From: a virus
Length of the DNA: 23,365 nucleotides
Virus record (IMG/VR): IMGVR_UViG_3300037071_004614
Span: 1-23,365 of that record
Direction: 5' to 3' (one strand)
Within the stretch, counting starts at the first letter, position 1; each line of letters begins with the position of its first letter. Position numbers and translations under genes: made by a program. This document shows positions 1 to 23,365 of the stretch, piece after piece. The notes beneath the pieces were generated by a model. The model did no database searches and was not told where the DNA came from. It worked only from the letters and a program-made list of their open reading frames with translations.

Positions 1-800
1 AAGGAAAGAATCAGGTCTACGTCTGTTCCTCCCTGTTGCCACGCATCCTGAATAGCTGTCCCAAGCCATGATTCCGTGAGGACTGGACCTACCGAACGGA
101 CATTGGTGGTAATAAGTGAACGGATACCAGCCATAGTACGTCGCGCTGTTCCAGAACCAATGGTATTTCCAGAGGCAATACCCATGATCGCTACTTTTTC
201 AAGGTCACGAACGGCTTCTGTCAACTTCTTCATTTTCTGGTATTCAAATTCGTCTTCAATCCCTCCCAAGAGTGCTACGGCCTGTTGTGTACCAGAGACA
301 ATAATATCCTTTTTAATAAGCTGAACGAAGTTGGAATTACGGCTCCGGTTTGTGCTGGAGTCCTGTGTAACGTCATCTCCTTCCAATGCAGCGTCAGAAA
401 TGACTTCAAGATTTTGACCAGCCGCAAAGGAGTTGGCAACAGTGCCACCAAACCCACGTGTGAGGGTAATAGAGTTCCCTGCAATAACTGAAATAGTGAA
501 ATACTCATTGGTGACAGGCTGACGGAGGACCGTGCCTACTTGGAGATAGGCCGCTTTCCCTGCAGCAACACCCATCACGGTATCTGTGGATGCAGAGGCT
601 ACCGCAGAGGAAGCCACAATGGTATTTGGTGCAAGTTCATCCTCTAACCATTCATGCTTAGTCTGCATGACTGGTCTATCTGCGTCACCGAGATAATCCA
701 AGAGAGGGGTTTCATGGGGAGTAATAATACTCACCATGTCTGACACGTCTTCCGCAATCGTATTGAAAGCAGAATAGGTTGCACGTCCTGTGAAAGCCAT
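1..800 (-). CDS. Major capsid protein, SU10/DUF5309 family (3' end cut by window)
   Basis: Main shell protein of the capsid. The frame is open from the ATG at 800 to the window edge, giving 266 residues with no stop; the C-terminus lies outside. I read it as the DUF5309 (phage SU10-type) capsid family from several conserved features: TPHETPLLDYLG (27-38) followed by KHEWLEDEL (48-56), the NRSRN segment (151-155), IIVSGTQQA (166-174), the acidic EDEFEYQ (182-188) and RDLEKVAIMG (198-207). An AGGAG ribosome site sits 7 bases before the ATG. The position after portal and scaffold-like genes is where a capsid gene is expected. The preceding 79-base gap may carry its own promoter, which would suit a protein needed in large amounts. 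Family assignment is from memory of the motifs; no search was run. Confidence 0.9.
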   Translation of the reverse strand, partial: MAFTGRATYSAFNTIAEDVSDMVSIITPHETPLLDYLGDADRPVMQTKHEWLEDELAPNTIVASSAVASASTDTVMGVAAGKAAYLQVGTVLRQPVTNEYFTISVIAGNSITLTRGFGGTVANSFAAGQNLEVISDAALEGDDVTQDSSTNRSRNSNFVQLIKKDIIVSGTQQAVALLGGIEDEFEYQKMKKLTEAVRDLEKVAIMGIASGNTIGSGTARRTMAGIRSLITTNVRSVGPVLTESWLGTAIQDAWQQGGTDVDLILS

Positions 801-5447: not shown

Positions 5448-5450
5448 AGA

Positions 5451-5921
5451 TTAGGCTTCTCCAAGCTTCCCACTCTGCCCATACCTTTGTGTGTTGTCAC
5501 CCATGACACGCATGAGTTCTTTCAAGGCATTCTTTTGCTCAGGCGTTTCAGCAGGCTTGGCTTCTCGCATATCTAATGCTTGATTGATATTCAGTGTTCT
5601 ATCCCTGAGTAGGGTAATCTGGAATATCTTGTTGACTGCCCACTCGAAATGTCGATACTCGAAATTTTTAGAAGTATATGGAATATCAACAATCTCTTGA
5701 AGCCTCGCTGTAGCAGTCCTACGGAGATGATTGATGTCATTATCAATCAACTCCATATATTTCGTCTCAAGATGGGCCATGTACTTCTTAAACTCTAGGT
5801 CTTGTCTCCATAGTTTGATTTGTCTGATAGAAAATTCTGGAAGTTGTTTAGAAATCTGAGTAGGAGTCATCCCTACAAGATAGTACCTGGCAGCTTTTTT
5901 ATGGTGTATTTTGAGGATCAT
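5451..5921 (-). CDS. terS: Probable terminase small subunit
   Basis: A DNA-binding partner of the large terminase that selects phage DNA for packaging. The 156-residue size and the place directly upstream of terL are typical. The N-terminal region (about 8-45) reads as a helix-turn-helix: KKAARYYLVGMTPTQISKQ, then a recognition-helix candidate around SIRQIKLWRQ. Residues 45-115 are helical, fitting the oligomerisation core, and the tail (115-156) is polar and flexible. The ATG at 5921 has no strong ribosome site; the next in-frame ATG (codon 18) would destroy the HTH, so 5921 is kept. Sequence similarity among small terminases is low, so the call leans on HTH plus context. Confidence 0.75.
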   Translation of the reverse strand: MILKIHHKKAARYYLVGMTPTQISKQLPEFSIRQIKLWRQDLEFKKYMAHLETKYMELIDNDINHLRRTATARLQEIVDIPYTSKNFEYRHFEWAVNKIFQITLLRDRTLNINQALDMREAKPAETPEQKNALKELMRVMGDNTQRYGQSGKLGEA

Positions 5922-5983
5922 AAGATACCATCTATGATAAGGATTGATACCGAGAACAAATACAAGAGATAAACTGTACTGTG

Positions 5984-6012
5984 ATTATAAGACTCTTTCA
6001 TTATATATACAA
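5984..6012 (-). promoter_or_regulatory. Possible promoter for the terminase/head genes
   Basis: In the 94-base gap before terS, one of the longest gaps in the window, the minus strand has TTGTAT (6012-6007) and a perfect TATAAT (5989-5984) 17 bases apart. The -10 is ideal, the -35 matches only at its first three bases, and the region is AT-rich, so chance is a real possibility. It would mark the start of a separate packaging/head transcript. Confidence 0.3.
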
Positions 6013-6015
6013 ATA

Positions 6016-6507
6016 TTAAATTTTTAAGGTCAGCTTGTTAATACCTCCACCACTCCATACGTCTATCATACAGGCAATCTCTACAGCTTCTTCTACACTC
6101 TTCCCACATAACATAGCTGCCATCGCTGGCATATTCCCTGTCCCAATAGCGTAGAAGTCTTCCTCAACTATAAATGGAATCCATGTATCTTCAAACTGGT
6201 AGATAATAGGTTCATTGTTTATAGACGTTAAAAAGAGTGCTTGAAAATCCTTTGCAGGAACACAAGATGGAAATAATTCTGGATTCATTCCACTTCTTAC
6301 CCATCGAAAAAACGGCTCATTATATTCTACCAAGCCAGCACACCCTACAAGACACTCTTTTTTATTAGGAAGAATATCATATTTTTGTTCGGTTGTATTT
6401 GTTACGATACATCGAATCTTAGTGAAGCTTCCACGTAAGCCACGATCATTTGTTTGTCTATCAGATGCCATTATTAAAGTCCGTTTATCAACAGCAATAG
6501 TGGTCAT
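6016..6507 (-). CDS. Proteasome/HslV-like N-terminal-threonine (Ntn) hydrolase
   Basis: Resembles the HslV peptidase and proteasome beta subunits, which cut peptides with an N-terminal Thr. With the start at 6507, Met removal exposes Thr1 in TTIAV. Mature numbering: Thr1, Asp15 in MASDRQ (like HslV Asp17), Lys29 in FTKI (like Lys33), Gly51-like strand VGCAG, and AIGTGNMPAMAAM (119-131), the counterpart of AIGSGG in HslV, followed by a helix and a last strand as in that family. Length 163 residues is close to HslV (about 175). An upstream in-frame TTG at 6537 would add 10 residues but has no ribosome site and would bury the Thr. The ATG overlaps the MazG stop (ATGA), with GGAG 4 bases upstream. 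No partner ATPase is in the window. Substrate unknown; activity inferred from conserved residues. Confidence 0.82.
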   Translation of the reverse strand: MTTIAVDKRTLIMASDRQTNDRGLRGSFTKIRCIVTNTTEQKYDILPNKKECLVGCAGLVEYNEPFFRWVRSGMNPELFPSCVPAKDFQALFLTSINNEPIIYQFEDTWIPFIVEEDFYAIGTGNMPAMAAMLCGKSVEEAVEIACMIDVWSGGGINKLTLKI

Positions 6508-7860: not shown

Positions 7861-8457
7861 TTATGTTACGATAACTTCTGCAATCATATAAACCTCTGAA
7901 CACTCAGCCCAATCTTTCGGCGCGATATACCCACCTGTGCTATAGGGCAGTGTAATCCCAAACGCTTTATAGACTTCCCAGGCAAATTCACTACAAATAT
8001 AGGCCGTATTTTGCGTAATGGGGTTAGTGCGAAAACCGACTTCTACAGCTAAAACACGTGCAGCAATACGTAGAATACTCTGAGTATCATAGGGATAACC
8101 TAGTAAATCAATCGCCCGTTGTGAGAAAGCCTGAAAGGCAGGAGATATTTCTGCCTGAAACAGTCTATGGCGTGCGATGAAGATACGGCCTGGATATCCA
8201 CAGCCTTCCCCTGCATAATTGGAGATATAACGTGAAACAGGGATAGCACGACATCCAATAGACTCCACTGACTCTAGCACTAAAATACGTTCTAGAGCAT
8301 CAACACGCATAAGACAACCAACGTGGGACCAGGGAGAATTGGTTGCATGTTGAATCATTCTGGCAAAAATAGAAGAACCTTGGCACAATAATAAATCTCC
8401 AGACTTGATCAGTGGGCGCACACTATCATAGGACATCAGAGAAGGTTCTGTACTCAT
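7861..8457 (-). CDS. Permuted papain-like (YiiX/DUF830-type) amidase or peptidase, candidate lysis enzyme
   Basis: 198 residues. The start IKSGDLLLCQGSS is typical of circularly permuted NlpC/P60-papain enzymes, where the His comes before the Cys: SHVG (His45 in SPWSHVG), the strand VLESVES (Glu62 or Glu65), and AYICSEF with Cys155 near the C-terminus. Members of this superfamily hydrolyse peptidoglycan peptides, amides or lipid esters. The ATG at 8457 overlaps the holin-like stop (ATGA) and has GGAAG 8 bases before it; the longer frame back to 8622 lies over the holin-like gene and is rejected. Holin followed by a coupled hydrolase is a classic lysis pair, which suggests an endolysin, although permuted papain enzymes are not the usual endolysin type. 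There is no signal peptide, so export would depend on the holin. Confidence 0.78.
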   Translation of the reverse strand: MSTEPSLMSYDSVRPLIKSGDLLLCQGSSIFARMIQHATNSPWSHVGCLMRVDALERILVLESVESIGCRAIPVSRYISNYAGEGCGYPGRIFIARHRLFQAEISPAFQAFSQRAIDLLGYPYDTQSILRIAARVLAVEVGFRTNPITQNTAYICSEFAWEVYKAFGITLPYSTGGYIAPKDWAECSEVYMIAEVIVT

Positions 8458-8648
8458 GGTGTTGTCTTCCATGCAGCTTTCCCTGAAATCGCTGCTGAGG
8501 ATAAACCCGTAGCAACGATCACTAACCATGTATTTGTTGCAATAGGCTCTGTAGTGCCAGAAAGTTGTGTCAATGTTGTGAGCAACGCGCCAGTAACACC
8601 AGTAATCAGACCGTACAGACACGTAAAATAGAATCCGGCTGTTGGCAT
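8454..8648 (-). CDS. Holin-like small membrane protein
   Basis: 64 residues with two hydrophobic segments (about 6-27 and 40-57) joined by a polar turn (TQLSGTTEPIATN), and a basic end (GKAAWKTTP). This is the size and topology of class II holins, which form membrane lesions at a set time and release the lytic enzyme. No holin family is recognised, so the call depends on topology and on the overlapping downstream hydrolase gene. The ATG at 8648 is preceded by AAGAGA, a weak ribosome site, as is common for timed holins. The reading frame shares its 3' part with a spurious extension of the next gene. Confidence 0.65.
   Translation of the reverse strand: MPTAGFYFTCLYGLITGVTGALLTTLTQLSGTTEPIATNTWLVIVATGLSSAAISGKAAWKTTP
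8466..8470 (-). promoter_or_regulatory. Ribosome binding site fixing the hydrolase start
   Basis: GGAAG on the minus strand, 8 bases before the ATG at 8457. It supports the short form that overlaps the holin-like stop by 4 bases instead of the longer frame from 8622. Confidence 0.55.
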
Positions 8649-9286: not shown

Positions 9287-11218
9287 TTACGCAAGAGCGA
9301 TGGCTTGTTGCCCAAAGTTTTGTACAGAAAACGTCATACGCGGATAGCCTGTACTTGGTGTTAAGCTAGAATCAGCATTCACAGATATGAGGGCAGGATT
9401 CGCTGTACTCATTGCCCATACTGTTGTAAGTGTCCCTGCACTCACCGTTTGCTGTGAGTTGACTTCATTAATAGTAACGGTTACTGTACCAGCTTTATTC
9501 ACTGCACTGTAATAGACACTCCCTGTTTCCGATTGAAAATCTGTCCCATCTGTGACTTCTATTGCATAGTGAATCACTCCCCCTACCGCACTGTTTGAAG
9601 CAATTGTGATACTTAAAATATTTATCGGAGTATTATCGGTGAGTACCTTAAATCCATTGGGAATGAATCTATCCACTTGCGTATGGTCTGTCGTGCCTGA
9701 TGTGGCACTCGCTGCATCTCCTTGGAATCTAATAAGTCCTGGTAACGCATTACCCGTACCAAGTCCAGTTTTGAGAATACGAGCACCACCAGATTTATTG
9801 GTTGCCCCTACTGTTGCTCCACCAGATTGATCGGTGAAATTATTCCCTGCCGTGTCAGCAGTAAGGTGACGTTCCATGGCAAGAGTACGTGCAACTTGAC
9901 CACCTATCCCTATATCTGTAGACGGAGCAAGGGTAAAAAATCCAAGACGGTCTGTGATAATATGGAGTGTGCCATCTTCTGTCCCAATAGCCCATCCTAC
10001 TTTTCCTGTTGCTCTATCCTTTGCCCACATCACAGCCGTATTTACAGGGTAAGTTGTCGGATCAACACCTTCTAGTGCTCCAAAATTTCTACTGGCATCT
10101 GCACCAAAGATTGTTACACCCACACCTACATTATCTGTAGTTTCTGTTGTGGTAGTATTTCCACTGGTGCCTGATGGCTCAAAGCCATTTGTGCTGTTGT
10201 AGAGAGCTGAACGTTCGCCTGATGTTAAGACGTGATTTTTATAAACACCGAAAGCATCTAATCTTCCATTCAAATAGCTACCACCACCATCAAGAGAACC
10301 AACAGTGAAACCATTTGTACTATTATACGATCCTGTTGTGAGTGCTGTAGATGATATCGTACCTAGATTGAGTTGAAGATTGATGGTGTTTGCAACCGAA
10401 TCATGCCATGCAACAAAAAAATACCATGTACCTGTAGCCAAACTCCCTACAATAGCATTTTGCCCAACAGTCCCATTTGAGACACCAAAATACATATCGG
10501 TGCCTATAGTTTGTAGTGTATATTCAAAGGTTGTACCAGCACCAGTAAATCCTTTTGTGAAAAGAATCTGTTGTCCTGGTAAGGCATCAAACTGTACCCA
10601 TCCAGCAAAGGTAAAATCTATATCACCCATGGATAGGTCTGTGTTGTCAGCAATAGTAAGAGACTGATTTGTACCATCAAAATCTGCGGCATTACCCACT
10701 TTCCCTGCAACAAACGTGACACCATTATTATTGGTGAAGTTATTGAGTCCAATAGAATCGTTGAGATTACTAAATTTCCAAAAAGCGACTGCACCTATCG
10801 GGAGGGTATTGACTGCATCTGTGTGGTTCCATCCACCGCCACTACCGGAAGATATAAGCCTTACATCAGTACCATCTTGCACTAGAAGTGATCGTGTACC
10901 AGCCTCTACAATAACTCCAGTACCAGCAGAGGTACGAATACTGAGTATATTTGCACCAGTGGTATTGTTATAAACCCCAAAGAGACGTGTCGTTATTGGG
11001 ACAATAACATCAACATCATCAGTAAGAGCCCCTGTAAATTCAAAGAATGTATTCAGCCATTCTGTTGCTGTGAGTGTCACATCTGCACTACCTGCAACGG
11101 ATTTTACTAGATAACCTGCTACAGCAGAATCTATTTTCTGAAATCCAGTATTTATGGTAACTTCTTTTTGTGATTGTCCTTGTGTTAGTTCAGTAATACC
11201 AAGCTGTGTTGTTGTCAT
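9287..11218 (-). CDS. LamG-domain tail fibre / receptor-binding protein
   Basis: About 643 residues, placed right after the tail hub gene, the usual slot for a receptor-binding protein. The N-terminal part begins TTTQLGITELTQGQSQKEV, like the DUF2793-type attachment region of phage fibres. A LamG (laminin-G/concanavalin-like) domain lies at about 139-350, starting AVAFWKFSN and ending with GRLDAFGVYK and the ERSALYN helix, typical of LamG_3. The remaining ~290 residues are Gly/Thr/Ser-rich beta structure with no family recognised, likely the distal tip or trimer part. The start is taken as the ATG at 11218 because AGG lies 8 bases before it; a GTG 9 bases earlier (11227) would put that site over the start codon. 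Lectin-like function is known for LamG domains; the ligand is unknown. Confidence 0.8.
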   Translation of the reverse strand: MTTTQLGITELTQGQSQKEVTINTGFQKIDSAVAGYLVKSVAGSADVTLTATEWLNTFFEFTGALTDDVDVIVPITTRLFGVYNNTTGANILSIRTSAGTGVIVEAGTRSLLVQDGTDVRLISSGSGGGWNHTDAVNTLPIGAVAFWKFSNLNDSIGLNNFTNNNGVTFVAGKVGNAADFDGTNQSLTIADNTDLSMGDIDFTFAGWVQFDALPGQQILFTKGFTGAGTTFEYTLQTIGTDMYFGVSNGTVGQNAIVGSLATGTWYFFVAWHDSVANTINLQLNLGTISSTALTTGSYNSTNGFTVGSLDGGGSYLNGRLDAFGVYKNHVLTSGERSALYNSTNGFEPSGTSGNTTTTETTDNVGVGVTIFGADASRNFGALEGVDPTTYPVNTAVMWAKDRATGKVGWAIGTEDGTLHIITDRLGFFTLAPSTDIGIGGQVARTLAMERHLTADTAGNNFTDQSGGATVGATNKSGGARILKTGLGTGNALPGLIRFQGDAASATSGTTDHTQVDRFIPNGFKVLTDNTPINILSITIASNSAVGGVIHYAIEVTDGTDFQSETGSVYYSAVNKAGTVTVTINEVNSQQTVSAGTLTTVWAMSTANPALISVNADSSLTPSTGYPRMTFSVQNFGQQAIALA

Positions 11219-11226
11219 GTAATACA

Positions 11227-11229
11227 CCT
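11227..11229 (-). promoter_or_regulatory. Ribosome binding site fixing the fibre start at ATG 11218
   Basis: AGG on the minus strand, 8 bases before the ATG at 11218; it overlaps the alternative GTG at 11227. This favours the ATG, removing 3 residues (Met-Tyr-Tyr) from the longest frame. Confidence 0.45.
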
Positions 11230-11239
11230 ATTATAATTT

Positions 11240-14200
11240 TTATCCAGATCCACGTGATGGATACCCAAGAATCCCATTAACTCCAATACCTAAGACATCA
11301 TAGTATATTGTACTCTGTACACTACCAAAATCAGTGACTTGCTGTGCAGCAGTATAGACTTGTGTTAAAGTATCTTCAGCAGAGCCAGCAAATATAGATG
11401 TGACTATTAATCTCATGAGTACCGTATATGAACTATTCGTATAGATACGTACATGGAATTGTTTTGTGAAATCAATATCCCAACTCACACCAGTATTGTC
11501 AATCAACTCTGAGTTAAGCCGTGAACGATAGAGCCATGCAAGAGTAATATCATTGGCAGAAGGAATGTTCCTCTGAATAGATTGGAGCACTGGTGCCCAT
11601 GGTTTCAGGTTATTTCCTTGAATAGTTTGAGTGAAAGCATCTGCCACATCTATAGGTGTAATTAAATCAACAACTTTATAATTCAGTGCTACACCGACCA
11701 CTGTTTCAGAATATGCTATTGGATTAGACACTACAACACTATTCAGTAACACAAATCTTTCATTTGTACTATGTGTACCCACATAGGATTCTGTACCCAA
11801 TCTTCCACGCAATAAATGAGTAAGTTGATACGTATTTGTTGCAGTAAGTGTTGCTGTGGTAAATTGGATAAGTTCATTGCCAACAAAGGCACGATTTGCT
11901 CCATTTAATACCTCAAGTTCTGTTGAATGGCTTAACGTACCACGCCTTAATACAACCGTCAATACTGTGGTATCATCCCATATATCGTAATCTACATTCG
12001 GAAGTGGAGCTGCGACATTACCAGTAATAGCTTCTGTCGCTACTGTTTGTAACGCACTATAGGTTATACCCCCATCTAAACTTCTATAGGGAATTGCGTA
12101 AGAAAAACTCCGTGGGTTTTGTGTGGTGAACGCAGCAATAAAAACTCTTGGTGCAATATCTGTAGGGGTGAGTGCTGGTACATCCACGATATAAATATCT
12201 ACACGTCCAATAATAAGTGTTGTCCCTGTACTAACACCAGATATCGCTGGTGTCGGGATCGTCTCAGTGTAAAAAGCAGGATCAGTCACGATAGATTTTA
12301 CACCAGTAATCCAGTTAAATCCTCTATTTAGCTCACTAATTCTCATAAGATAGTCAAATGAACGTGCAGAGACATTGATATTATCTCTTGGATCAAGAAG
12401 CATGAGCATAGGTGTAATTGTAAACTCAGATAATTCTCTCTCGTTCCACAACTGATATAATCGAACTTCAGCATTCGTATAAGCTTGTTTACCAGAGAGC
12501 GCAACGGGCGCATTAAGTACCTGTGGATTTCTTTCGATACTCCCTGATGTTAAACTTGCAATCTGAGAGTTACTTTGAAAGTTTCTGTCTCTGTCTGGAT
12601 AGTTTATTGTTACTTTTGTTGGTAACTCACGTTCCTGAATACGGCTTAACACTAAGGATTTTGGATCATCTTTATCTATACCTCCAGCTAACGCCCTCTC
12701 TGGTATCGTTGCAGCAACTTGAGCATTAGAGTTAAAGAAGTATCGCATAACTCCTTCTGATTCAACTCCACTAAAAAGAAAAATATCAGCAAGGGTTTGA
12801 ATCACATCTTTTGCTGGTTGCGGATTGGAAAGAACCATATTTACTATTGTATTATCAAGACCGCTAGTATCTATCTCTCCAGGGGTTAAACCAGCTTCCT
12901 CTGATAAGTGTCTTACGACACATGCAAGGCCATCATCTACATAGGGGCTTGTTCCTATTGATGCAGTTGGGCTAATAACATATGGAGGATGTTCAGATGA
13001 GATTCCATATGCAAATCCATCTTCATCAGAAAGCACTTTATAGGTATCTCTTGGCGTGCGTATACTCACAAACGTTCCGTTACTTTGAATATGGAACATC
13101 TCATTGCCACTAGAAGCCACTGCCCATATAGTACCATCACCAGGAGCTAAGGATATTGTTGATTGTGAAAGTACGAAAGTCTCTACTGTGTATGCTGTCT
13201 GGTGTATACGATGTATTTGTGGAGCATTCGTACTCCCTACCCAAATATACCCATCTTCAGCTTGAGTAATAACATGAGGACCGTTAGGGATACTAATAGT
13301 TGCATAATCACCGGAGCTTGTAAAATGACCAACAGTATTCGCATCTCTGTTTGTCACCCATATTTTATTATCAGACGCTCTAATTATATGTGTAGCACCA
13401 GATCCTACATTAATATTTTCTGTGATTGTAGCTGCATTGGCTGTTTTCGCAACCGTATTATTATTCCGCAATATGAAAACAATATTCCCTGTTGACCACA
13501 CTAAGTCAAGCACTGGTGTTCCAACAGAAAAACGGGTATTCGCAAATATATTGCTATTAATATTAAAAGAAACAACACTTTGTATCTGCTCTAAATAAAT
13601 ATAAAAATAGTTTCCACCAGCATAGATGTCTTTTACCCCTACAACCGCATGTGCTGCTATCTCCCCTGCAACACGGACTTGATAATCATTGATAAACATA
13701 TTATAAGAATCACCAGCATAGACAGTTAGCATATCAGTATTTGTATCTTGTCCATCTCCTAATCCTAAGCTTATAACTCCCAACTTATTTGTTACTGATG
13801 AATATGCTATGCCACGTGGAGAAAGTTTTGCATTCTGTGTACCAATAACTTCAAGAGTTTCTGTTTTATATCCTGTCAGTTCCCCAACACTATTCGTCAA
13901 AGAACTATTTGTAAGATGTGAAACAGAACCAAGTCCCACGACCAAACCCACTGTTGCTCCTGAACCTTCTGTGTTCGATGGACCATTAGAATGTTGAATT
14001 TCAAAAGTAAAATTTGGCACACGTCCTGAAGTTCCAAGATTAAGGTCTTTAATAACAACATATGCCAAGCCTCTATATGCTGAGACATTTCCTACACCAT
14101 GTATTTCTTCTAACGTTGCATCGGGATTTTGTTCTTCTGTCCCTACGTGAACAATAGCTGTCTCAAGTGTTTCATCAATACTATGTGCAACTTTCAATCC

Positions 14201-14725
14201 TTCTTCTACATCAACAAGGACAAGCCTAAATCTTCCAAGATCATTACCATTATCATAGACTAAATCTAAGTCAAGCCATACACGGAGTATCTTAGAAATT
14301 GGACCTTCACATAGAGCAATAGCTAACGTCGTTGTGTATATTTTCTGTTTAACTGTCGTAGTGGCACTCCCTCCCCCTTTCCCTTTTGGTTGTGGGCTTG
14401 CTGCTGTTTGTACATCTGTTTCAATGATATGTTCTTCTTTTACTGTTGCATGAATAATGTTTCCACTAATACGATAAATACCAAATACTCTTGGTATACC
14501 CACACCAAGAGCAGGGGAGGTGATGAAAATATCTTTAAGGCTTTCTCCTGGTGTTTGTGTTGTTTTCTTTGGCTTGACTGGATCAATAGCATTGCCAGCA
14601 ATACCACCAACAGTCATCCCAAGAGAGAAACCTAATCCAGCACCTTGAAAACCACCAAAATAAAATCCTACTGCAGCTCCTACTATACCCCCTGCTAGTG
14701 CCCCAATCTGACCCCCACTACTCAT
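11240..14725 (-). CDS. Large tail hub / tip protein (RcGTA gp15-like), with beta-propeller insert
   Basis: 1161 residues; the distal-tail central protein that organises host contact. The Gly-rich hydrophobic N-terminus (8-45) is followed by IPRVFGIYRISGNI and LAIALCEGPISKILRVW (135-150), typical of this family, and by RVPNFTFEIQHS (235-246). The family usually continues directly with DLACVVRHLSEEAGL-like sequence, here at 597-613; between them lie about 350 extra residues (250-595) that read as a beta-propeller, with repeated blades such as DNKIWVTN and DGYIWVGS and DGTIWAVASS. After that the hub core resumes (STGSIERN, LWNERELSEF, LMLLDPRDNINVSA) and ends with TYQLTHLLRGRLGTE (965-980). The ATG at 14725 follows the peptidase stop by 7 bases. 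The propeller call rests on repeated blade patterns. Confidence 0.85.
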   Translation of the reverse strand: MSSGGQIGALAGGIVGAAVGFYFGGFQGAGLGFSLGMTVGGIAGNAIDPVKPKKTTQTPGESLKDIFITSPALGVGIPRVFGIYRISGNIIHATVKEEHIIETDVQTAASPQPKGKGGGSATTTVKQKIYTTTLAIALCEGPISKILRVWLDLDLVYDNGNDLGRFRLVLVDVEEGLKVAHSIDETLETAIVHVGTEEQNPDATLEEIHGVGNVSAYRGLAYVVIKDLNLGTSGRVPNFTFEIQHSNGPSNTEGSGATVGLVVGLGSVSHLTNSSLTNSVGELTGYKTETLEVIGTQNAKLSPRGIAYSSVTNKLGVISLGLGDGQDTNTDMLTVYAGDSYNMFINDYQVRVAGEIAAHAVVGVKDIYAGGNYFYIYLEQIQSVVSFNINSNIFANTRFSVGTPVLDLVWSTGNIVFILRNNNTVAKTANAATITENINVGSGATHIIRASDNKIWVTNRDANTVGHFTSSGDYATISIPNGPHVITQAEDGYIWVGSTNAPQIHRIHQTAYTVETFVLSQSTISLAPGDGTIWAVASSGNEMFHIQSNGTFVSIRTPRDTYKVLSDEDGFAYGISSEHPPYVISPTASIGTSPYVDDGLACVVRHLSEEAGLTPGEIDTSGLDNTIVNMVLSNPQPAKDVIQTLADIFLFSGVESEGVMRYFFNSNAQVAATIPERALAGGIDKDDPKSLVLSRIQERELPTKVTINYPDRDRNFQSNSQIASLTSGSIERNPQVLNAPVALSGKQAYTNAEVRLYQLWNERELSEFTITPMLMLLDPRDNINVSARSFDYLMRISELNRGFNWITGVKSIVTDPAFYTETIPTPAISGVSTGTTLIIGRVDIYIVDVPALTPTDIAPRVFIAAFTTQNPRSFSYAIPYRSLDGGITYSALQTVATEAITGNVAAPLPNVDYDIWDDTTVLTVVLRRGTLSHSTELEVLNGANRAFVGNELIQFTTATLTATNTYQLTHLLRGRLGTESYVGTHSTNERFVLLNSVVVSNPIAYSETVVGVALNYKVVDLITPIDVADAFTQTIQGNNLKPWAPVLQSIQRNIPSANDITLAWLYRSRLNSELIDNTGVSWDIDFTKQFHVRIYTNSSYTVLMRLIVTSIFAGSAEDTLTQVYTAAQQVTDFGSVQSTIYYDVLGIGVNGILGYPSRGSG

Positions 14726-14732
14726 AGTAAAC

Positions 14733-15164
14733 TCAACCTTCTATCCCAGGATAGGTGTAGCAGGCTTCTAGAATACGCTCATGGATAAATCGACTTACCA
14801 CAACTTTTCGTAATGTTTGAGAAATACGCGCATGGACAACACATCCATCATTCACAATAATAGCAGTATGTTGAGGGATAGAACGAAAACGCAAAATATA
14901 AATATCTCCAGGTAATGCTTCTTCTATAGGCTTTCTACGAAATCCACTATTATTCAACGTATCAAGAAGAAGTGTAGGAAAACTTAACTGCCATTGTGCT
15001 GTGTAAAACGGCACTACAAAATTCCTTGGGAGTAAACCAACACTCTTTCCAATACCTATTACCAAGTGTGCACAGTCAACACCAATGCCTTTACAACATT
15101 GAAAATGTTGGAATGGAGTATTCACCCACTCATAGGTTTCATGAACTATATCATCTCTATTCAT
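14733..15164 (-). CDS. NlpC/P60 cysteine peptidase, tail-associated (RcGTA gp14-like)
   Basis: 143 residues. Virion-tail peptidoglycan hydrolase of the NlpC/P60 family, used to open the cell wall during DNA entry. The active site is visible: Cys31 in GVDCAHLV, His99 in PQHTAII and a polar His111 (VVHARI). The segment ALPGDIYILRF (83-93) is the family's GD-lead strand. Position between DUF2163 and the hub gene matches the g13-g14-g15 order of the Rhodobacter gene transfer agent, so it most likely acts in the tail tip instead of cell lysis. The ATG at 15164 lies 9 bases after the DUF2163 stop. It is shorter and not permuted, unlike the hydrolase at 7861. Confidence 0.85.
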   Translation of the reverse strand: MNRDDIVHETYEWVNTPFQHFQCCKGIGVDCAHLVIGIGKSVGLLPRNFVVPFYTAQWQLSFPTLLLDTLNNSGFRRKPIEEALPGDIYILRFRSIPQHTAIIVNDGCVVHARISQTLRKVVVSRFIHERILEACYTYPGIEG

Positions 15165-15173
15165 ACATAGCTC

Positions 15174-16292
15174 TTAGTTAGGTGGAGTATAAAATTCTTG
15201 ATCTTCAAGTTTTCCAACAGAGGGATTGTAAAATACTGCCTCATTTGTTGGAACAAAGTCAAATCCCCGAAAGTTTATTTTATTATTAAATTTATTTTTA
15301 CATGTTGAAGCTTTTTTATCACATCCTGCAGTGACTTCAATAATATCTCCAGATTGTGGTAAACTTGGGAAAGGTAGATACGTCTGAATCAGCCCACTAT
15401 TATTAAATCGGATATCACGGTGTATACGGTCATTCTCACCACTCTTGAATATTATTCTTCCTTGATTGGCAAATCCACTTTCAAAACTTGTAGAGGTTTG
15501 TATAACTTTTCTATCTGTTGAGGTAGACGTTACTGTTCCTCTCTGCCAAAAATTTGTAGATTGCACAATAGTAAGAGTTATACTACTTTCGTTCGTTAGT
15601 GTTGCACTTAAAACAATCACAGAACTGGTAATTGAAGATATGGTAGCACTAACGTTATTTGCAGTAAGAGAACCTGAGACAACAACAACACTCCCTAACG
15701 TGTAGCCATCTTCTAGAAATGAACCGCCATCATTTCGTGTTATACTATTTGTTGGTGATCCTGCTACAGTACAAGGCATAGAATTTGAGATAGGAAATAT
15801 CTGTACTCTACAACGACTATCCCCTAAATCTGCATCACATGACGGAGAAAATATCCGTCCAATTTTTGTATCAAGCACTTGAGCAAGGCCACGCACTTCT
15901 ACTTGTATTAGCCCATCCATACGTGTAATCTCACCTACACGTCCAGTGCTTTCAATAATTTTTCCTAAGTTCAAATTCATATAATTGATAGTAAAAACAT
16001 CAACAGCAGCGTTATCAAGGAAACCATTTATGACAGCACTCTCAAAGTCTGGATAAAGAAAAGCACTCACTGTTAGTGTTCCTGGTACAAGAAATTCTGA
16101 AAAACGCACATCAGATATTTGGAAACCTTGGAGACTCAAGTAGACATCTTCACCTATTGTAAGATCACGTGTATGTGATGTGAAAGCATAGGTTACACCA
16201 AATACAGTATTAATTCTTATACAACGTGCAAGTGTTTTCCCTATCTTCGTTGTTAGGTATGTTTTAAAAGCGGTTAATACTGCCGTTCGCAT
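15174..16292 (-). CDS. Tail hub protein DUF2163/BR0599 type (RcGTA gp13-like)
   Basis: 372 residues. The N-terminal DUF2163 part (about 10-150) forms a hub around the distal tail; the BR0599-type C-terminus ends with CKNKFNN and FRGFDFVPT. Four Cys, at 152 and 161 (SPSCDADLGDSRC) and 324 and 331 (AGCDKKASTC), match the spacing of the iron-sulphur-binding Cys known in RcGTA gp13 and lambda gpL relatives. Between Cys161 and RGTVTS (about 168-245) an extra ~75-residue beta segment is inserted, with NDGGSFLEDGYTLGS at its start, a pattern seen in other phage tail proteins. The ATG at 16292 follows the DUF2460 stop by 2 bases; AAAGGTGG precedes it. Iron-sulphur binding is inferred, not shown. Confidence 0.85.
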   Translation of the reverse strand: MRTAVLTAFKTYLTTKIGKTLARCIRINTVFGVTYAFTSHTRDLTIGEDVYLSLQGFQISDVRFSEFLVPGTLTVSAFLYPDFESAVINGFLDNAAVDVFTINYMNLNLGKIIESTGRVGEITRMDGLIQVEVRGLAQVLDTKIGRIFSPSCDADLGDSRCRVQIFPISNSMPCTVAGSPTNSITRNDGGSFLEDGYTLGSVVVVSGSLTANNVSATISSITSSVIVLSATLTNESSITLTIVQSTNFWQRGTVTSTSTDRKVIQTSTSFESGFANQGRIIFKSGENDRIHRDIRFNNSGLIQTYLPFPSLPQSGDIIEVTAGCDKKASTCKNKFNNKINFRGFDFVPTNEAVFYNPSVGKLEDQEFYTPPN

Positions 16293-16294
16293 CG

Positions 16295-18673
16295 TTACCC
16301 ACCTTTGAATATTTCTCTACCATTATAGAGCTTAATAGGATTACGAACCTTTGGACGATCTATTGCAGCAACAGCATTCACAGTAGGTCTTCCAGTCGCC
16401 AATCCATCAGTATTTGGTTGATACCACGAAAAACCTACATTTCCAAAACGTGGGTTATTGACGTATGCTGGTTTCCACTTCTCTACTGAGTTTATATTTA
16501 ATTCCATAGTATCAGGATCAGCTCTCCAGTATGGATATCCTTGAAATGGAGGTATAGTGGGTGTTGTAAACTCATTTCCGTATTGACCTAGCCAATAACG
16601 TAATAAGTATTCATGCCCAATAGACACCGTATTAAAAGTCGCAGCTCGACTGCCACTAATCCATATAACCATTTCATATAAACGTCCACCAAAATGATCT
16701 GCTACGAGAGCAGAAGCAGGAAATATAGCCTTCCCTCCTATAGCGCAGTTATTAAAAGAATCAACATTGTATTTATCCCATTCTCTCTCTAAGTAATAAA
16801 GTCCATAATTTTTTGCACCTACAATTAGATAAGGGGTAATTCCTGGTGGATCACTTGTTGCTGTTGCAATACTATGTCCATGCTCTGAAAAAGTTCTAGA
16901 ACCATAAGAAGAACCACTTAAATATAACCTTCCATGATAAGCAAATGTCATCACATATAAATGCATATCATCATCTTCAGAAGATGATACTTGTGAAAAA
17001 GTCCCACCTTCGGGTATCTGAGGAAGAGGATTTAGAAAATATCCTGTAAGTGAATCAAAGCCATTTTCTAAAAGAATACTCCCATCATAACCAAGTATGC
17101 TTATAGACTTCGTTTTCATCCCAAAATTACTGAGTTCTAAACTGGTAATTTGCCCTGGTGCTCTATGCGAAAAGAGTGTTCTTTTATTTGCATCTTGTGG
17201 TACATGAGAAATAACAAAGCCAACGGTTATAGAATTATACCAACTTGCCATTTTAGAAAAAAATAGTGGATCTGTTGAGAACGGATAAAGAGTTGCTGCA
17301 GAACCGCCAGAGCTGAATTGCACATAATAATCTACGGCTTTAAAATCCTGTAAAGCTGGAAGTGCACATCCAGTCACAATAGTTGAGAATGGTTGTGGGT
17401 TATTGTATACCACCGTTGGCAATGTGTTCATGATTTCAATAAAACCAATAGATTCTATATCGTAAAAATCAAATCCACTTGGTATAGAAATAGATAGAAT
17501 ATCACTGTCAAATCGTGTTGGAACATCATATGTACCAGTCCATGATATTGTTCCTGTTGGTGGTGTTGCAAACGTTACTACACCTGTTGCTGGATTGATC
17601 GTTGGTTGTGGAGATGCAGCAACACTATTTATATAAACAACACAGGTACTTACCACAGGTTTCGTAATATTTCTCTGCTGAACAAATGCACCAGAAATAT
17701 AATTTTTTATGAGCTGAAATGTTGTGAGAACACCGTTTCCAGTCCCTATAACATGTTCATCTAAACACTGAAAGTCTGTGATATCCTTCATCCGAAAACC
17801 AGATAACCGACCTTTTCTACAAAGAAAGAAATGAAGAATAGTTTCCATATCTAATTTATTACGATACTCCTTAGAGATAATAAAACTTACTTTCGGTTCT
17901 GTGACATGTGTAACTCGTTCCATCTCACCACTATCGCTGTTAATAACAACAGCATTTACCCCTGGTCCTATAGAAGATCGTTCTGCATAGGGCTCTGGAA
18001 AGCGTGCCTCAACGAAATCGGGAATCTCAGATTCCTGAAGTATTGTTTCTAATGCAGTTGCACGTCTCTCTATAGCAGTAATCGGGGTATCAAACTGTTC
18101 AAAATTTTCAACAGATGTAGGGAGTTTTTCTATTATAAAATTTACTGGCGTATAGAACGTACCAGTCCATGTCAAGCTAAGTAAACCAGCAGGGGGAGTT
18201 GTAAACGTCACGATACCTGTTCCTGTTGTATAATCAACTGTGAATCCAGAAGTAATTGGTATAGTATCTCCAAATATTTGTATAGGAGAATTTGGGAGAA
18301 ATATAGGCCGAATATAGGTATGTGTGTCACCAGGAATACCAGAATTGTAATTTTTACATAATTGAAACTGTGTACGTACACCGTCAGCATTACCAAAATG
18401 TTGTGCCGTTGCTTGATAATCAGTAGGATCAAGTATCTTGAAGGTGTATCTATTTCCTAAACGTGCTCTATAAAAATCTATAATATAGCTCAAATCCGCT
18501 TGGTCACGTAAGGCTGGAGAAAAATTATATGTCCGTAACGGGTCTTGCCACATCCCTACCCGTTCTTCTTCTCCTTCACGCATACTATGCACTTGAGTCA
18601 TAAATTTAATCTCAACCTTTGCACCCAATGATATGAATGTATCCAGTGAGACATTATGAAAGTCAGTGATCAT
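16295..18673 (-). CDS. Distal tail protein with two DUF2460-like modules and a lectin-like C-terminus (RcGTA gp12-like)
   Basis: 792 residues, about four times a usual DUF2460 protein. Module A (about 1-200) has IDFYRARLGNRYTFKILDPTDYQA and DGVRTQFQLCKNY. Module B (about 255-415) has FFLCRKGRLSGFRMKDITDF and NGVLTTFQLIKNYISG, clearly a second copy. Both contain the TGIVTFTTPPAG or TGVVTFATPPTG strand. Residues about 440-700 form a beta-rich region with a LamG/concanavalin-like look (GRLYLSGSSYG, GGRLYEMVIWISG), and the last 70 residues end KLYNGREIFKGG. The ATG overlaps the tape measure stop (ATGA). Such distal tail rings contact receptors; the lectin-like domain would extend that role. Its order before DUF2163 matches RcGTA. 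Confidence 0.82.
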   Translation of the reverse strand: MITDFHNVSLDTFISLGAKVEIKFMTQVHSMREGEEERVGMWQDPLRTYNFSPALRDQADLSYIIDFYRARLGNRYTFKILDPTDYQATAQHFGNADGVRTQFQLCKNYNSGIPGDTHTYIRPIFLPNSPIQIFGDTIPITSGFTVDYTTGTGIVTFTTPPAGLLSLTWTGTFYTPVNFIIEKLPTSVENFEQFDTPITAIERRATALETILQESEIPDFVEARFPEPYAERSSIGPGVNAVVINSDSGEMERVTHVTEPKVSFIISKEYRNKLDMETILHFFLCRKGRLSGFRMKDITDFQCLDEHVIGTGNGVLTTFQLIKNYISGAFVQQRNITKPVVSTCVVYINSVAASPQPTINPATGVVTFATPPTGTISWTGTYDVPTRFDSDILSISIPSGFDFYDIESIGFIEIMNTLPTVVYNNPQPFSTIVTGCALPALQDFKAVDYYVQFSSGGSAATLYPFSTDPLFFSKMASWYNSITVGFVISHVPQDANKRTLFSHRAPGQITSLELSNFGMKTKSISILGYDGSILLENGFDSLTGYFLNPLPQIPEGGTFSQVSSSEDDDMHLYVMTFAYHGRLYLSGSSYGSRTFSEHGHSIATATSDPPGITPYLIVGAKNYGLYYLEREWDKYNVDSFNNCAIGGKAIFPASALVADHFGGRLYEMVIWISGSRAATFNTVSIGHEYLLRYWLGQYGNEFTTPTIPPFQGYPYWRADPDTMELNINSVEKWKPAYVNNPRFGNVGFSWYQPNTDGLATGRPTVNAVAAIDRPKVRNPIKLYNGREIFKGG

Positions 18674-21600
18674 CTGGTAAGTCCATCTCTTTTGTTCGCT
18701 CTATTTAAACGAGCGTAGACTTCTGACGCTATCTGTGATCCTGTCCGTCTACCCTGTTCTTCTGTGGTAACGTTTGGGAGCACAATATTAAACGCAAAAG
18801 TTCTACTACTATCCATTGCTGATGCTACATTCTTCTGCTGTGCTCTATTGAGAATAATTTCCCCTGGAGTGAGCATCGCTGGTACAGTATCCGTACCCAT
18901 CCCTGTAAATCCACCATTTTGAAAATGACGGATACCATGAATAGTCACCATACCTCCTGTTGCAGCACCAGGAAAATCCCCTCCTGTAAAACCTCCTGTA
19001 CCACCATAGGCTGATGCTGCTGCACCACCAAGCTTTAATATTCCACTCAGTAAACCACTATACCCTTTCGTGCTATCTGATGTCCCACTTAACGCCATTT
19101 GGAGTTCTTCAGCAAGTGGCTTAAATATAAGTATTTCTAATGTCATCTTCTTGATGTTTTCTATAACAATGTCTGCTAAGGATGAGAAGAAAATACCTGC
19201 CTTATCTAAGACAGAGAATTTAGTTTCTATGTCCTGTGTGGCTTGTCCAAGTCGTTCAACTTCCTCACGGAGTTTCTGTGCTTGGAGTGCGCGTCTGGAT
19301 TGGTCAGCATCCCGTAAATTTTGTCCAGAGGGAAGATTTCGTTCCAGTTCACGTGCTTGTGATTCTAAACTCCGTTGCCGTTTACTGATACTTTCCTGAA
19401 TCGTACTTTGCCGTTCTCCTGCTCTCCGCTCTAATGCTTGATCAAAATTAAGAATAAGGTCTTGAGCCCCACTTAGAACGTTGACAGAGAGTTTCTGAAA
19501 CTCTAGATTGAGATTTGATAAACTACCCAAACTATCTGTATATTGTCTCAGTGGACCGTTCAGTTCTTCATAGGAAAGTTTCAATTCTTTATTGGCACGT
19601 GCGAGAGCTAACGCTTCTTGGCGTTGTCGTGGATCAATAATTTGTTCATTTATTTCTCGAATCCTCTGCTTAAACTCTAGTTCTGCCTGTCGCTGTGTCA
19701 CATCCAATTGCAGCACATCTATTTGATCTTGAATCGCTCTATTTTCTTCTTCAATAGATCGAATATAGTCTTGAGACGTTTTTTTATTTTCTATGTTAAA
19801 GAGTTCAAGTGCCTGTGCACCACGCCGTATAGCATTCTCTTGTTGAGCAAAAAAACGCGGTGTTTGATTAGCAATATCTTCTGCTGTAACTCCTGTCTCC
19901 CTATATAAATCTCGTATAGCAGTAAGTATTGCAATTTCACGTTCGGCTTCTATACGGGTACGAGAACGGCCAGAAACTTGTATGTCTGTCAGACGTTCTA
20001 CTGATTTTAGAGTATCTTCATAGGCTGTCTGAATCGTATCTTGCTGCCGTAACATTTCACGTGTGGTTGTGGTAATCGTCTGAACGGTTGCTGCTGCTTG
20101 TTGCACAGGTCTTGGAGCACCAGCAGATTGTTTTTCTATATCTATCGACATACTAATTTGAGAGCCATCACCCCTATCTCTCACTGATGCAGCCTTCTCA
20201 GCACGTAAGGCTTCTCCAATAGACTTATTCAGTTCTGTACGTGTATCCGTTGGACGTGTCGCCACATATGCTTGAACAGCAGTTGCAGCAATCAGTGCAG
20301 CTCCCATAACTCTTGCTGGTGTAATCACCCCTCCACCAGCAAGTTCCGGTTTCATTGCTTCTTTAATATCTCTCTGAAGTGTAGACCCTTCATATGCTCC
20401 ACGGATAACCGGATTGGCTGGTTCAACATTCCCTATACTAATCCCACCTCTTGAACCAGGAATAATAGGTTGTCCCCCACTCATGTTTTGCCCGTTCATC
20501 GTAACAGAACCACTGAGGTTAATCGTTGCTGGTCCTGTGACAGTTGCTTGCATACTCCCTACATTCGCAACCTGTGATCCTACCGTTGTTTGTTCAACAG
20601 TGGTAGTCCGTGTAGGCTGACGTGCAGCACGATCTATATTTTGTGTAAGGTCAGAGAGGACACGTGAACTGGTCGGTACTCCCCTCATAGGAAAGGCACG
20701 TGCAAGTTCTCCTGGTGCCCCTGATTCTTCTGAAGTAATACCAATATTCCGTGCTGAGAGACTGATACGGAGTGCTGCTCGCTGGAACTGGAGTTCTTCT
20801 TCCCCTTGTTGCACCTGTGTAAGTTGTCGTAGTCTACCAGAAAGGACACCTGCCTCTACCGCTGCTTGTCGCATCGCTTCTGCTTGTTTCTTAAACGCTT
20901 CCGCTATTCTATCCGTTTGTGAGGCTGGCGCATTGGCAAGTATCGTTGCGTATTTTTCTTGAAGTTCCCGTATTTGGTCTAAAAAATCCCGTTCTACTTC
21001 AAGGATACCAGTAGTTGCACCCCCTTGAACAAGAGGAATCAATGCTCTCGTATTAGCAATTCTCTGCCGAATACCCAAGAGTGCCTGTTCCATCGTCTGT
21101 CCAAGTTTCGCTGCTTCTTGGAGGGCTAAGGCTTGCACTTCAGGCCCAAAGAATTGATTAATAACCGATTGTTTTGCTTTCTCTTTATCTCCAGTGCTGA
21201 GACGTTCAAATACTTCTGTACGCTCTAACGCTGTAACACGATCTAAAACTTTTCCATATGCTTCATATTCTATACTCAGCGAGGACATTCCACCTGTTGT
21301 TTTCTCAAGAAGGATAATTTGGTTTTGTAAATCTTGATTAAATATACGGAGTTCTTTATCTATTTTCTCTTGTGCTTCAAGCTGTGCACGTGTAGAGTCT
21401 GGTAAATTATCATTTGATTTTGCTTGTAACTGAAGTAACCGTTCTTGCTCTTTTTGCATATCCTCAAATTTCTTCTGTGCTCCTTCTAATCCTTCAGCAA
21501 ATTTATCCGCTGCTGTTTTCCCAAGGATCATAGATGCTATCAACCCTGCAAAAATAGCTACTCTTCCAATCAAACTCATATTAAGTAAGACATTTCCCAA

Positions 21601-23365
21601 GAATGCAAAAGCACGGACTAAGGTAAGAATACCTGTAATAAATGCTGCACTGGTGAGAAATACAAAGAGTTTTATAACTGATTCTAAGTTATCTCTGAGA
21701 AAGCGGAGAATATTTATGAGATATAGAAATGCTGCACCGAGTACATTGGTAATAAAATTGGCAAGTTGTGCAACCGCTACACGTGTTTCTTTTTCATTGA
21801 GGAAATCTGTCAGCGTTTTAAAGCCAGATATCAGTCCAGGCCCCACACCAGCATTGAGAGCAACTTGTTGGACTTCTGTAATAGCTGTTTTGAGAACATT
21901 GAATGCCCCACCTAATCTATTAATATTTTTAACAGCTTCTGAGCCATATCGTTTCTCAAACTCAGCAGCTAGACTGGTCAATACTTGCTCTACGCCAAGT
22001 GTCCCTCTTTGAATAGCTTGTGAGAGCTGTTGTGGGACCATCCCTAAACTCTCAGCCACAACACGGATAGAACCAGGGACAATATTACCTAACTGCTTTA
22101 CTAATTCTTCCGACTGTAAACGGCCTTTACCAAGGATATCAGTAAATACTTTTATTAATCCTGTCCCTTTTTCTGTATTTTGTCCCAATACTGCTTGGGC
22201 AGCAGCAATACCACGGAAGACTTTTTCTATTTTTTCTCCTTCTAAACTACTCCCCAATGCTGCTGCTGAAAGCCGTGCGTAATCCTCTCTGGTTTGTTGG
22301 AGTCCTAGTCCTAATTTTTTCGCTACATCTGCCGCAACAGCCATCCTACGGCTACCCTCTTCTACGTCATTGCGTGCTCCTGCTCTAAAGAGGGCAAACG
22401 TATTTTCAAAATCACGTCCAGTCTCAAAGAGTGTCTGTCCAAGTTGTTGTAGTTCACGGAGAATAGATCGTACTGTAAATAAGGCAAGAATAGCTATAGT
22501 AGCTGTGAGAGCACTATTAAAACCAGGAAGTGTATTCTGTGCCGTATCTCGTAAATTTCTATCTAAGGCATCCTTTTTCGCCTTAGCGGTAACGAGAGAA
22601 CCTTCAAATATTTGTGTTTGTCGTGCAGCTCTTTCTGATGCACGCCCAAACCCTTCTGTCGCTTCTCCCTGGAATATAAAAGGCTGAATACCTTGTTGCT
22701 GTCGAGTTTGTAAACCCCCTCCAATAGCCCCTGGTGCTTGAAGTAATTGCTGTTGTCCCGATGTCCCTGTAGGAAGTGCGAGCGTCTTTAATCGTAGATA
22801 GGTAGCATAGGCACGCTCTCCTATATCACTAAACTGTCGTACAGAAGCAGTTGCAGTCAGTGTCGCTTGCGAGAACGTTATCATAGAACGTGAGAGTGAT
22901 TGTACTTCAGTGTTTAACCTCATAATCTGAGTGACAGTCGCTCCCAACGCTGCAACATTTGTGAGAGCTGTACTTGTGGCAACAATAGCCGTTGTAGTTA
23001 TAGGTCCAGCCGCCGCTGTCGCTGCTTCTGCTGCTGGTGCAGGGGTTGCTCTGGTTCTCCGTACTCTGGTAGCAGCGTCCCCTACTCTTCCACTCAGGGT
23101 TGCTGTTTCACGCATCAAGGTATTTAAACCAGTAAGGTCTGAGCGTATTTCACGGATAATATCTCGTAGTTGTCGAAAACTATCTCCCATCCGTGCCCCA
23201 TAATCCGCAGTACGGATACTTTGCAGGGTATAATTTAATCGCCCTAGCTCTTGCACCACACTTTGAATCATGGTGAGAAAATTCCGCCCACCAGATACGA
23301 GACGGTTAAAGGTATCGGCTAATCTATTAAAATTAAGTTCATCAACCGTGCGAGCTGCCGTCTCT
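18670..23365 (-). CDS. Tape measure protein (5' end outside window)
   Basis: Sets tail length and is ejected with DNA. The frame is open to the window edge: upstream of the first internal ATG (23271) 31 more sense codons are seen without a stop, so the true start is outside and at least 1564 residues are coded. A hydrophobic segment at about 245-270 (counting from 23271) leads into a tape-measure N-terminal-type domain (about 275-475; motifs LQSEELVKQLGNIVPGSIRV, RLGGAFNVLKTAI). A larger hydrophobic zone is at 504-577, coiled coils follow near 580-660 and 1165-1300, and the Gly-rich end carries GTDTVPAMLTPGEIILNRA (about 1455-1475), typical of tape measure C-termini. The stop overlaps the DUF2460 start. 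The internal ATG is not the start. Confidence 0.92.
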   Translation of the reverse strand, partial: ETAARTVDELNFNRLADTFNRLVSGGRNFLTMIQSVVQELGRLNYTLQSIRTADYGARMGDSFRQLRDIIREIRSDLTGLNTLMRETATLSGRVGDAATRVRRTRATPAPAAEAATAAAGPITTTAIVATSTALTNVAALGATVTQIMRLNTEVQSLSRSMITFSQATLTATASVRQFSDIGERAYATYLRLKTLALPTGTSGQQQLLQAPGAIGGGLQTRQQQGIQPFIFQGEATEGFGRASERAARQTQIFEGSLVTAKAKKDALDRNLRDTAQNTLPGFNSALTATIAILALFTVRSILRELQQLGQTLFETGRDFENTFALFRAGARNDVEEGSRRMAVAADVAKKLGLGLQQTREDYARLSAAALGSSLEGEKIEKVFRGIAAAQAVLGQNTEKGTGLIKVFTDILGKGRLQSEELVKQLGNIVPGSIRVVAESLGMVPQQLSQAIQRGTLGVEQVLTSLAAEFEKRYGSEAVKNINRLGGAFNVLKTAITEVQQVALNAGVGPGLISGFKTLTDFLNEKETRVAVAQLANFITNVLGAAFLYLINILRFLRDNLESVIKLFVFLTSAAFITGILTLVRAFAFLGNVLLNMSLIGRVAIFAGLIASMILGKTAADKFAEGLEGAQKKFEDMQKEQERLLQLQAKSNDNLPDSTRAQLEAQEKIDKELRIFNQDLQNQIILLEKTTGGMSSLSIEYEAYGKVLDRVTALERTEVFERLSTGDKEKAKQSVINQFFGPEVQALALQEAAKLGQTMEQALLGIRQRIANTRALIPLVQGGATTGILEVERDFLDQIRELQEKYATILANAPASQTDRIAEAFKKQAEAMRQAAVEAGVLSGRLRQLTQVQQGEEELQFQRAALRISLSARNIGITSEESGAPGELARAFPMRGVPTSSRVLSDLTQNIDRAARQPTRTTTVEQTTVGSQVANVGSMQATVTGPATINLSGSVTMNGQNMSGGQPIIPGSRGGISIGNVEPANPVIRGAYEGSTLQRDIKEAMKPELAGGGVITPARVMGAALIAATAVQAYVATRPTDTRTELNKSIGEALRAEKAASVRDRGDGSQISMSIDIEKQSAGAPRPVQQAAATVQTITTTTREMLRQQDTIQTAYEDTLKSVERLTDIQVSGRSRTRIEAEREIAILTAIRDLYRETGVTAEDIANQTPRFFAQQENAIRRGAQALELFNIENKKTSQDYIRSIEEENRAIQDQIDVLQLDVTQRQAELEFKQRIREINEQIIDPRQRQEALALARANKELKLSYEELNGPLRQYTDSLGSLSNLNLEFQKLSVNVLSGAQDLILNFDQALERRAGERQSTIQESISKRQRSLESQARELERNLPSGQNLRDADQSRRALQAQKLREEVERLGQATQDIETKFSVLDKAGIFFSSLADIVIENIKKMTLEILIFKPLAEELQMALSGTSDSTKGYSGLLSGILKLGGAAASAYGGTGGFTGGDFPGAATGGMVTIHGIRHFQNGGFTGMGTDTVPAMLTPGEIILNRAQQKNVASAMDSSRTFAFNIVLPNVTTEEQGRRTGSQIASEVYARLNRANKRDGLTR

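Follow-up and report, generated by a model that had tools for sequence, protein, structure and literature searches.

RcGTA-like baseplates belong to a machinery shared by gene transfer agents and many phages of aquatic bacteria, and their peripheral domain has no settled role. According to the sections of PMC7296036 at hand, this domain comprises residues 230-744 of the RcGTA megatron, lies between the adhesin-like (47-229) and the central (745-984) domains, and contacts the fibre-binding domain. In R4C the peripheral domain is described as mannanase-like, with an additional carbohydrate-binding domain, and carbohydrate roles were proposed by the R4C authors for domains at this position (PMC10276861, in the part at hand). 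Here, we analysed 23,365 nucleotides of viral DNA (IMG/VR virus record IMGVR_UViG_3300037071_004614, positions 1 to 23,365, hereafter the window), in which the open reading frame 11240-14725 on the minus strand is, judging by its matches, an RcGTA-type megatron (gp15). Its conserved N-terminal and C-terminal parts (N-core and C-core) are separated by a slot of 352 residues carrying repeats of the virginiamycin B lyase (VBL) type. We favour, with moderate confidence, the view that this segment is a VBL-type propeller serving as peripheral domain, that it would bind a ligand on the host surface, and that it occupies a swappable socket that need not be filled.

The megatron and its domains

The protein matched PHROG 4271 (tail protein, phrog_4271) at 2e-133, the RcGTA megatron (6tba) at E 3e-33 and the R4C megatron (8gtc) at 3.1e-17. 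On the N-side, amino acids (aa) 14-159 and 192-247 aligned to residues 8-205 of 6tba (192-247 to 149-205), and on the C-side aa 598-1073 aligned with residues 764-1228. These matches on the two flanks of the slot bracket the RcGTA peripheral domain. The parts of the gene are:

11240..14725, minus strand: RcGTA gp15-type megatron of the tail tip, 1161 aa, single open reading frame (phrog_4271 and 6tba matches)
13985..14725, minus strand: N-core, aa 1-247, a Gly-rich iris/penetration-like start followed by an adhesin-like domain, with VPNFTFEI at its end (alignment to 6tba 8-205)
13856..13984, minus strand: Gly/Ser/Thr-rich linker, aa 248-290 (sequence)
12932..13855, minus strand: predicted beta-propeller of VBL type, aa ~291-598, with seven inferred blades, the first two weak (Vgb_lyase, PDB 2qc5/2z2p/2z2n, repeats)
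12932..13405, minus strand: the four clear blades at aa 441-598, with a period of 39 (repeat test, blade table)
11243..12931, minus strand: C-core, aa 599-1161, central domain and fibre-binding part (Pfam; C-core profile 2e-162)

The N-core profile matched the protein at 3.2e-65. The adhesin-like N-core and its Gly-rich iris/penetration start were recognised by their match to 6tba 8-205, the pore role of the latter being putative; the names of these domains come from PMC7296036, in the sections at hand. The C-core contains Phage-tail_3 (aa 633-798, 76.3 bits, cut-off 23) and Rcc01698_C (aa 899-992, 90.7 bits, cut-off 27). The Pfam scan found no family above its cut-off in the linker, and no GTA_TIM (PF13547) at E <= 1 in the whole protein. 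An earlier reading of the sequence without database searches (the sequence-only reading) had named this a tail hub protein. It is a tail-tip protein, but in RcGTA nomenclature it is the megatron, and the hub is the neighbouring open reading frame (15174-16292).

A probable VBL-type propeller in the slot

The sequence-only reading had noticed about 350 residues with repeated blade patterns between VPNFTFEI (aa 236-243) and VVRHLSEEAGL (aa 603-613), which are separated by ~360 residues. The repeats were confirmed. DNKIWV, DGYIWV, DGTIWA and DGFAYG begin at aa 452, 491, 530 and 569, with a spacing of exactly 39, and the strongest ungapped self-match lags in the segment were 78 and 39. The best local self-alignment of aa 300-600 scored 80, compared with 34.6 +/- 5.0 for shuffled sequences, and was reached in 0 of 60 shuffles (0 of 50 for a longer cut of the slot). 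The cores did not stand out in the same test: the N-core was equalled by 10 of 60 shuffles and the C-core stretch by 15 of 60. Blade motifs averaged 0.007 in 20,000 shuffles of the segment, with a maximum of 1; this count is descriptive only, since the pattern was composed after the motifs had been seen.

One of the two propeller types that had been suggested, that of virginiamycin B lyase, agrees with the family matches. The Pfam profile Vgb_lyase (PF24684) scored 51.2 bits on the segment alone, above its curated cut-off of 50, with about half of the profile matched (154 of 290 positions). The PDB sequence search with the segment returned 2qc5 (5.4e-15), 2z2p (1.2e-14) and 2z2n (1.1e-13), all solved VBL-type lyases, as the sole matches at E <= 1. 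A hand-made layout gave seven blades: blades 4-7 are clear, blade 3 is likely, and the first two are inferred. The segment (aa ~291-598) is probably a VBL-type beta-propeller, and the number of blades is probably seven.

Close relatives of the whole megatron or of the propeller were limited in viral_contigs to a single contig, identical to the window, and genome_contigs had none. The phages collection had no match to the propeller segment. A DNA pattern scan of viral_contigs for two D-G-x-I-W motifs retrieved 32 stretches, ~10 of which were copies of one unrelated 256-aa protein, and none was significantly like the segment (best phmmer E 0.17). Two more scans for propeller relatives found nothing.

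The slot in related hubs

We located the slot in related hubs using N-core and C-core profiles built for this work. Among the 112 phage records with a match we examined 16, to which we added 14 further hub loci from viral_contigs, and mapped 29 hub rows. The slot was empty (3-14 residues) in seven rows from six records: S20 (twice), ctokW459, R9Y2, L022, L024 and L031. It held GTA_TIM in four rows (541-563 residues: RcSimone-Hastad, PmaS-R3, ctuI7215, MW462191). In 17 rows it had 303-459 residues, and no Pfam family passed its cut-off in the 16 of these that were scanned (all but L027). The remaining row is the window. Outside these 29 rows are L014 and L032 (split open reading frames), L021 (broken slot) and L053, which has GTA_TIM; PF13547 was found in L004, L005, L006, L019 and L053. 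GTA_TIM is not a defining feature of the wider phage family, whose slot varies. Because its contents vary among the 29 rows, the slot looks like a swappable socket for a TIM barrel, a propeller or nothing.

The claim that the two flanking motifs are near each other in related hubs is correct for the seven rows with an empty slot, but not for the others. Some relatives carry a segment at this position and some carry none, so that an equivalent segment is not common to all hubs. The segment was also described as inserted. It does lie between conserved hub regions, but it replaces the GTA_TIM/peripheral domain and is not a one-off, as other hubs fill the slot differently or leave it empty. RcGTA and R4C carry other domains at the peripheral position, which argues for replacement rather than addition.

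We built a tree of 28 C-cores, leaving out by choice L020, L027, L028 and L029 (copies or split). The four TIM hubs formed one clade (99/97); the window was outside it, in a placement without resolution. The six slot labels required 7 changes on this tree, against a minimum of 5 and a mean of 13.0 when shuffled. The hubs L023 (slot of 459 aa) and L024 (10 aa) were sisters at 100/99, showing that near relatives can differ in slot content.

Some hubs were organised differently. In Alteromonas phage R9Y2 (L018, 812-5341), where the slot is empty, profile columns 67 and 72 of the C-core are separated by an insertion of ~760 residues; this second insertion site has no Pfam match above cut-off. In L014 (Xanthomonas phage Langgrundblatt2, 968-5018) and L032 the N-core, the open reading frame at the slot position and the C-core are separate genes. 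That of L014 at the slot position is annotated 'tail fiber lysozyme component', as if a socket occupant had turned into its own gene. The C-core of L028 (514-2838 and from 5638), and likewise that of L029, breaks at profile column ~190, giving two open reading frames ~2.8 kb apart, with a fibre-like one between them. In L021 the slot is interrupted (5267-6021) and the hub consists of two overlapping open reading frames in different frames, which may be real or a sequencing error.

Are there propellers in other slots?

The slots of L067, L068, L069, L070 and L071 form a group with 55-89% identity to L070 in the alignment. Both cores flank the slot in these loci, L068 being cut by the contig end. 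A model of the L070 slot (A6, five sequences) was nearly all-beta and of low confidence (predicted local distance difference test, pLDDT, 47.2; predicted template modelling score, pTM, 0.45), and we took it as a guide to fold class only. Foldseek gave 944 matches of this model in the PDB at E <= 0.001, the best being propellers of YncE, WD40 and quinoprotein types. Nearly all of the 50 listed matches are what we take to be propellers (WD40, YncE, YVTN, quinoprotein). VIA-align gave Z scores of 14.7 for NirN, 14.6 for NirF and 14.5 for YncE (243 residues, root-mean-square deviation 3.9). In the viral library the model matched WD40-like proteins and others without a name; no hub was named among them.

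Six of the 16 scanned slots without a family had Pfam matches, to Kelch_6, DNA_gyraseA_C, PQQ_2, DUF6923 (twice) and DUF6528, none of which reached its cut-off. DUF6923 and DUF6528 may be propeller families. The PDB sequence searches with the slots A6, A4, L026 and L030 found no propeller, which counts against a wide propeller claim. In a self-repeat test of 22 filled slots only the window had a score reached by 0 of 50 shuffles; the next lowest were L004 (1 of 50), L015 and L019 (2 of 50 each), and two of these three are TIM barrels. Slot propellers are thus indicated by sequence in one hub, have the support of a weak model in a second group, and are guesses in the rest. The broadest version of our proposal is a general exchange socket, in which several unrelated propeller families would be commonest in virulent phages, TIM barrels would be confined to one clade, and swapping or dropping the domain would change host-surface recognition. 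This comes close to an even call, but we lean slightly against it.

Possible role of the propeller and alternative explanations

If the baseplate is built like the solved ones of RcGTA and R4C, three copies of the megatron would form a ring at the tail tip, with their N-terminal helices closing the channel and the central domain docking on the distal tail. The peripheral domain would be the VBL-type beta-propeller, probably of seven blades, in place of the GTA_TIM barrel. Three propellers would then stand out sideways from a three-fold baseplate, each on its flexible N-side linker. The display at the tail tip that the sequence-only reading envisaged would follow from the slot being the peripheral domain position in the RcGTA structure (PMC7296036, in the sections at hand). 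Binding of a receptor or glycan is plausible: the propeller may be one of several sites through which the tail tip binds the host surface, its ligand being most likely a glycan. Its engagement could help to loosen the baseplate, since the peripheral domain of RcGTA touches the fibre-binding domain.

Several results weigh against this interpretation. The Vgb_lyase match drops to 47.9 bits in the whole megatron, just under the cut-off of 50, and is confined to aa 413-558, with blades 1-2 outside. Structure prediction, the check proposed for the propeller, yielded neither a propeller nor another fold: AlphaFold2 gave the segment alone a pLDDT of 31.5 and a pTM of 0.19, a low confidence that we attribute to the only homologue found being identical, and the model was excluded from fold claims. 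The propeller claim for the window thus rests on sequence. The comparison by hhalign of the window slot with 14 other slot profiles gave no link (best probability 3.3%), and PF24684 was found in 0 of the 20 relatives' records, so that the case for a wider propeller socket depends on a single model of low confidence (pLDDT 47).

The last two results also bear on a common origin, according to which all non-TIM occupants would be propellers from one ancestor and the window copy a diverged member instead of a new acquisition. The L070 slot model resembles propellers, and several of the sub-cut-off matches in 6 of the 16 slots are to propeller families (Kelch_6, DNA_gyraseA_C, PQQ_2). Yet neither hhalign nor the PF24684 search links the slots, the PDB sequence searches with four other slots or groups gave no propeller, and the others lack internal repeats like those of the window, which makes this origin unlikely. 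We find it just as improbable that the propeller is mainly a scaffold or spacer, propping the fibre-binding domain and setting the fibre geometry, with any ligand incidental. Contacts of this kind are made by the RcGTA peripheral domain (PMC7296036, in the sections at hand), but the existence of empty-slot hubs (S20, ctokW459, R9Y2, L022, L024, L031) shows that the core needs no occupant, and the occupants are strongly divergent in sequence, as expected for host-facing parts.

An enzymatic role, as a surface-polysaccharide lyase or hydrolase substituting functionally for a TIM-barrel glycosidase-like domain, seems less likely still. The nearest solved relatives of the propeller are lyases, and it sits where relatives have GTA_TIM, whose GH113 similarity is just above cut-off in 2 of 4. 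The catalytic residues of VBL are an E-x-H motif and partner residues; no E-x-H occurs within aa 247-605 of the window megatron, leaving the earlier suggestion of a hydrolytic module without support. We give hardly any credence to a chimera created in assembly from a bacterial VBL gene and a hub gene. The VBL-type matches are to cellular proteins, and the phages collection lacks the segment, but a single open frame contains both hub halves in order and G+C is alike in the segment (38.8%) and the two cores (39.8% and 39.2%). Furthermore, a second contig, L002 (IMGVR 3300037070_005447), is identical to the window across 9146 bases that span the N-core/propeller junction; it ends before the C-side junction.

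The baseplate neighbourhood

The genes around the megatron are:

9287..11227, minus strand: tail-fibre-like protein adjoining the megatron (phrog_11585 2.2e-12, phrog_12796 1.2e-4), no Pfam match
14733..15164, minus strand: NlpC/P60-like tail peptidase of 143 aa at the gp14 position (19.9 bits, cut-off 23)
15174..16292, minus strand: baseplate hub (gp13-like) with attachment domain (PF09931 8.9e-37, PF09356 2.9e-22)
16295..18673, minus strand: distal-tail-type protein, two tandem DUF2460 domains and ~374 aa (Pfam)
18670..23271, minus strand: tape measure protein (TMP_3 2.3e-18)

The window has the RcGTA-type baseplate order of distal tail, hub, peptidase and megatron, with the peptidase match below its cut-off; the gene order around this peptidase-like frame is as in phage relatives. 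The hub has six cysteines, among them 161, 174, 324 and 331.

The DUF2460 pair of the distal-tail-type protein is complete (aa 1-215 at 4.6e-38, the next 203 aa at 1.8e-44) and its final 374 aa have no match; the distal-tail protein of S20 has a single DUF2460. The fused pair could fix the odd and even subunits that join a tail of six-fold symmetry to a baseplate of three-fold symmetry. The stretch 7861-8622 (minus strand) matched a permuted papain-like amidase of the YaeF/YiiX type (Peptidase_C92, 30.4 bits, cut-off 27), but in PHROGs an enoyl-CoA hydratase-like family; it possibly encodes a lysis or tail enzyme. An SU10-type major capsid protein (3-800, minus strand, 150.9 bits), cut by the contig end, occurs together with the RcGTA-type tail module.

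Comparison with known systems

That a ready-made propeller stands in for the TIM barrel here, and that other hubs are devoid of the domain, suggests that the peripheral domain is a host-facing module and not a part of the core machine. The variable slot suggests a swappable socket with which phages alter their binding target on the host cell. Annotators therefore have reason to seek propellers in long unassigned segments of phage hubs. We found no report of a propeller in a megatron in the open-licence literature, as judged from titles and abstract openings. In the sections at hand, the single 'propeller' of PMC7296036 is a fibre foot domain, and the word is absent from those of PMC10276861, PMC10721106 and PMC8265664.

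The window megatron resembles those of RcGTA (Rcc01698, gp15; 6tba/6teh) and R4C (8gtc) in the order of its N-core, central and fibre-binding parts, and in the gene order hub, peptidase, megatron. It differs from both by having VBL-type repeats in a 352-residue slot and lacking GTA_TIM; the peripheral domain of RcGTA has 515 residues, and that of R4C is described as mannanase-like plus a carbohydrate-binding domain. The blade sequence is like that of virginiamycin B/streptogramin B lyase (2z2p, 2z2n, 2qc5; PF24684), but here the predicted propeller is fused into a phage tail protein and lacks the E-x-H. The empty-slot hubs of Tetraselmis viridis virus S20 and of the IMG/VR loci L022 and L031 share both cores with the window, but have 3 residues between them. 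The hubs of Caulobacter, Sphingobium and Erythrobacter phages (CcrSC, Lacusarx, XM05) and those of L067-L071 also have a slot filled by a non-TIM segment, without detectable sequence similarity to the window propeller. The receptor-binding protein of Staphylococcus phage phi11 reportedly places beta-propellers in a siphophage host-recognition device; the likeness is by description only, as that is a separate protein whereas the window has a domain inside an RcGTA-type megatron. The protein is of a known kind, and what is new is the domain that occupies its variable position.

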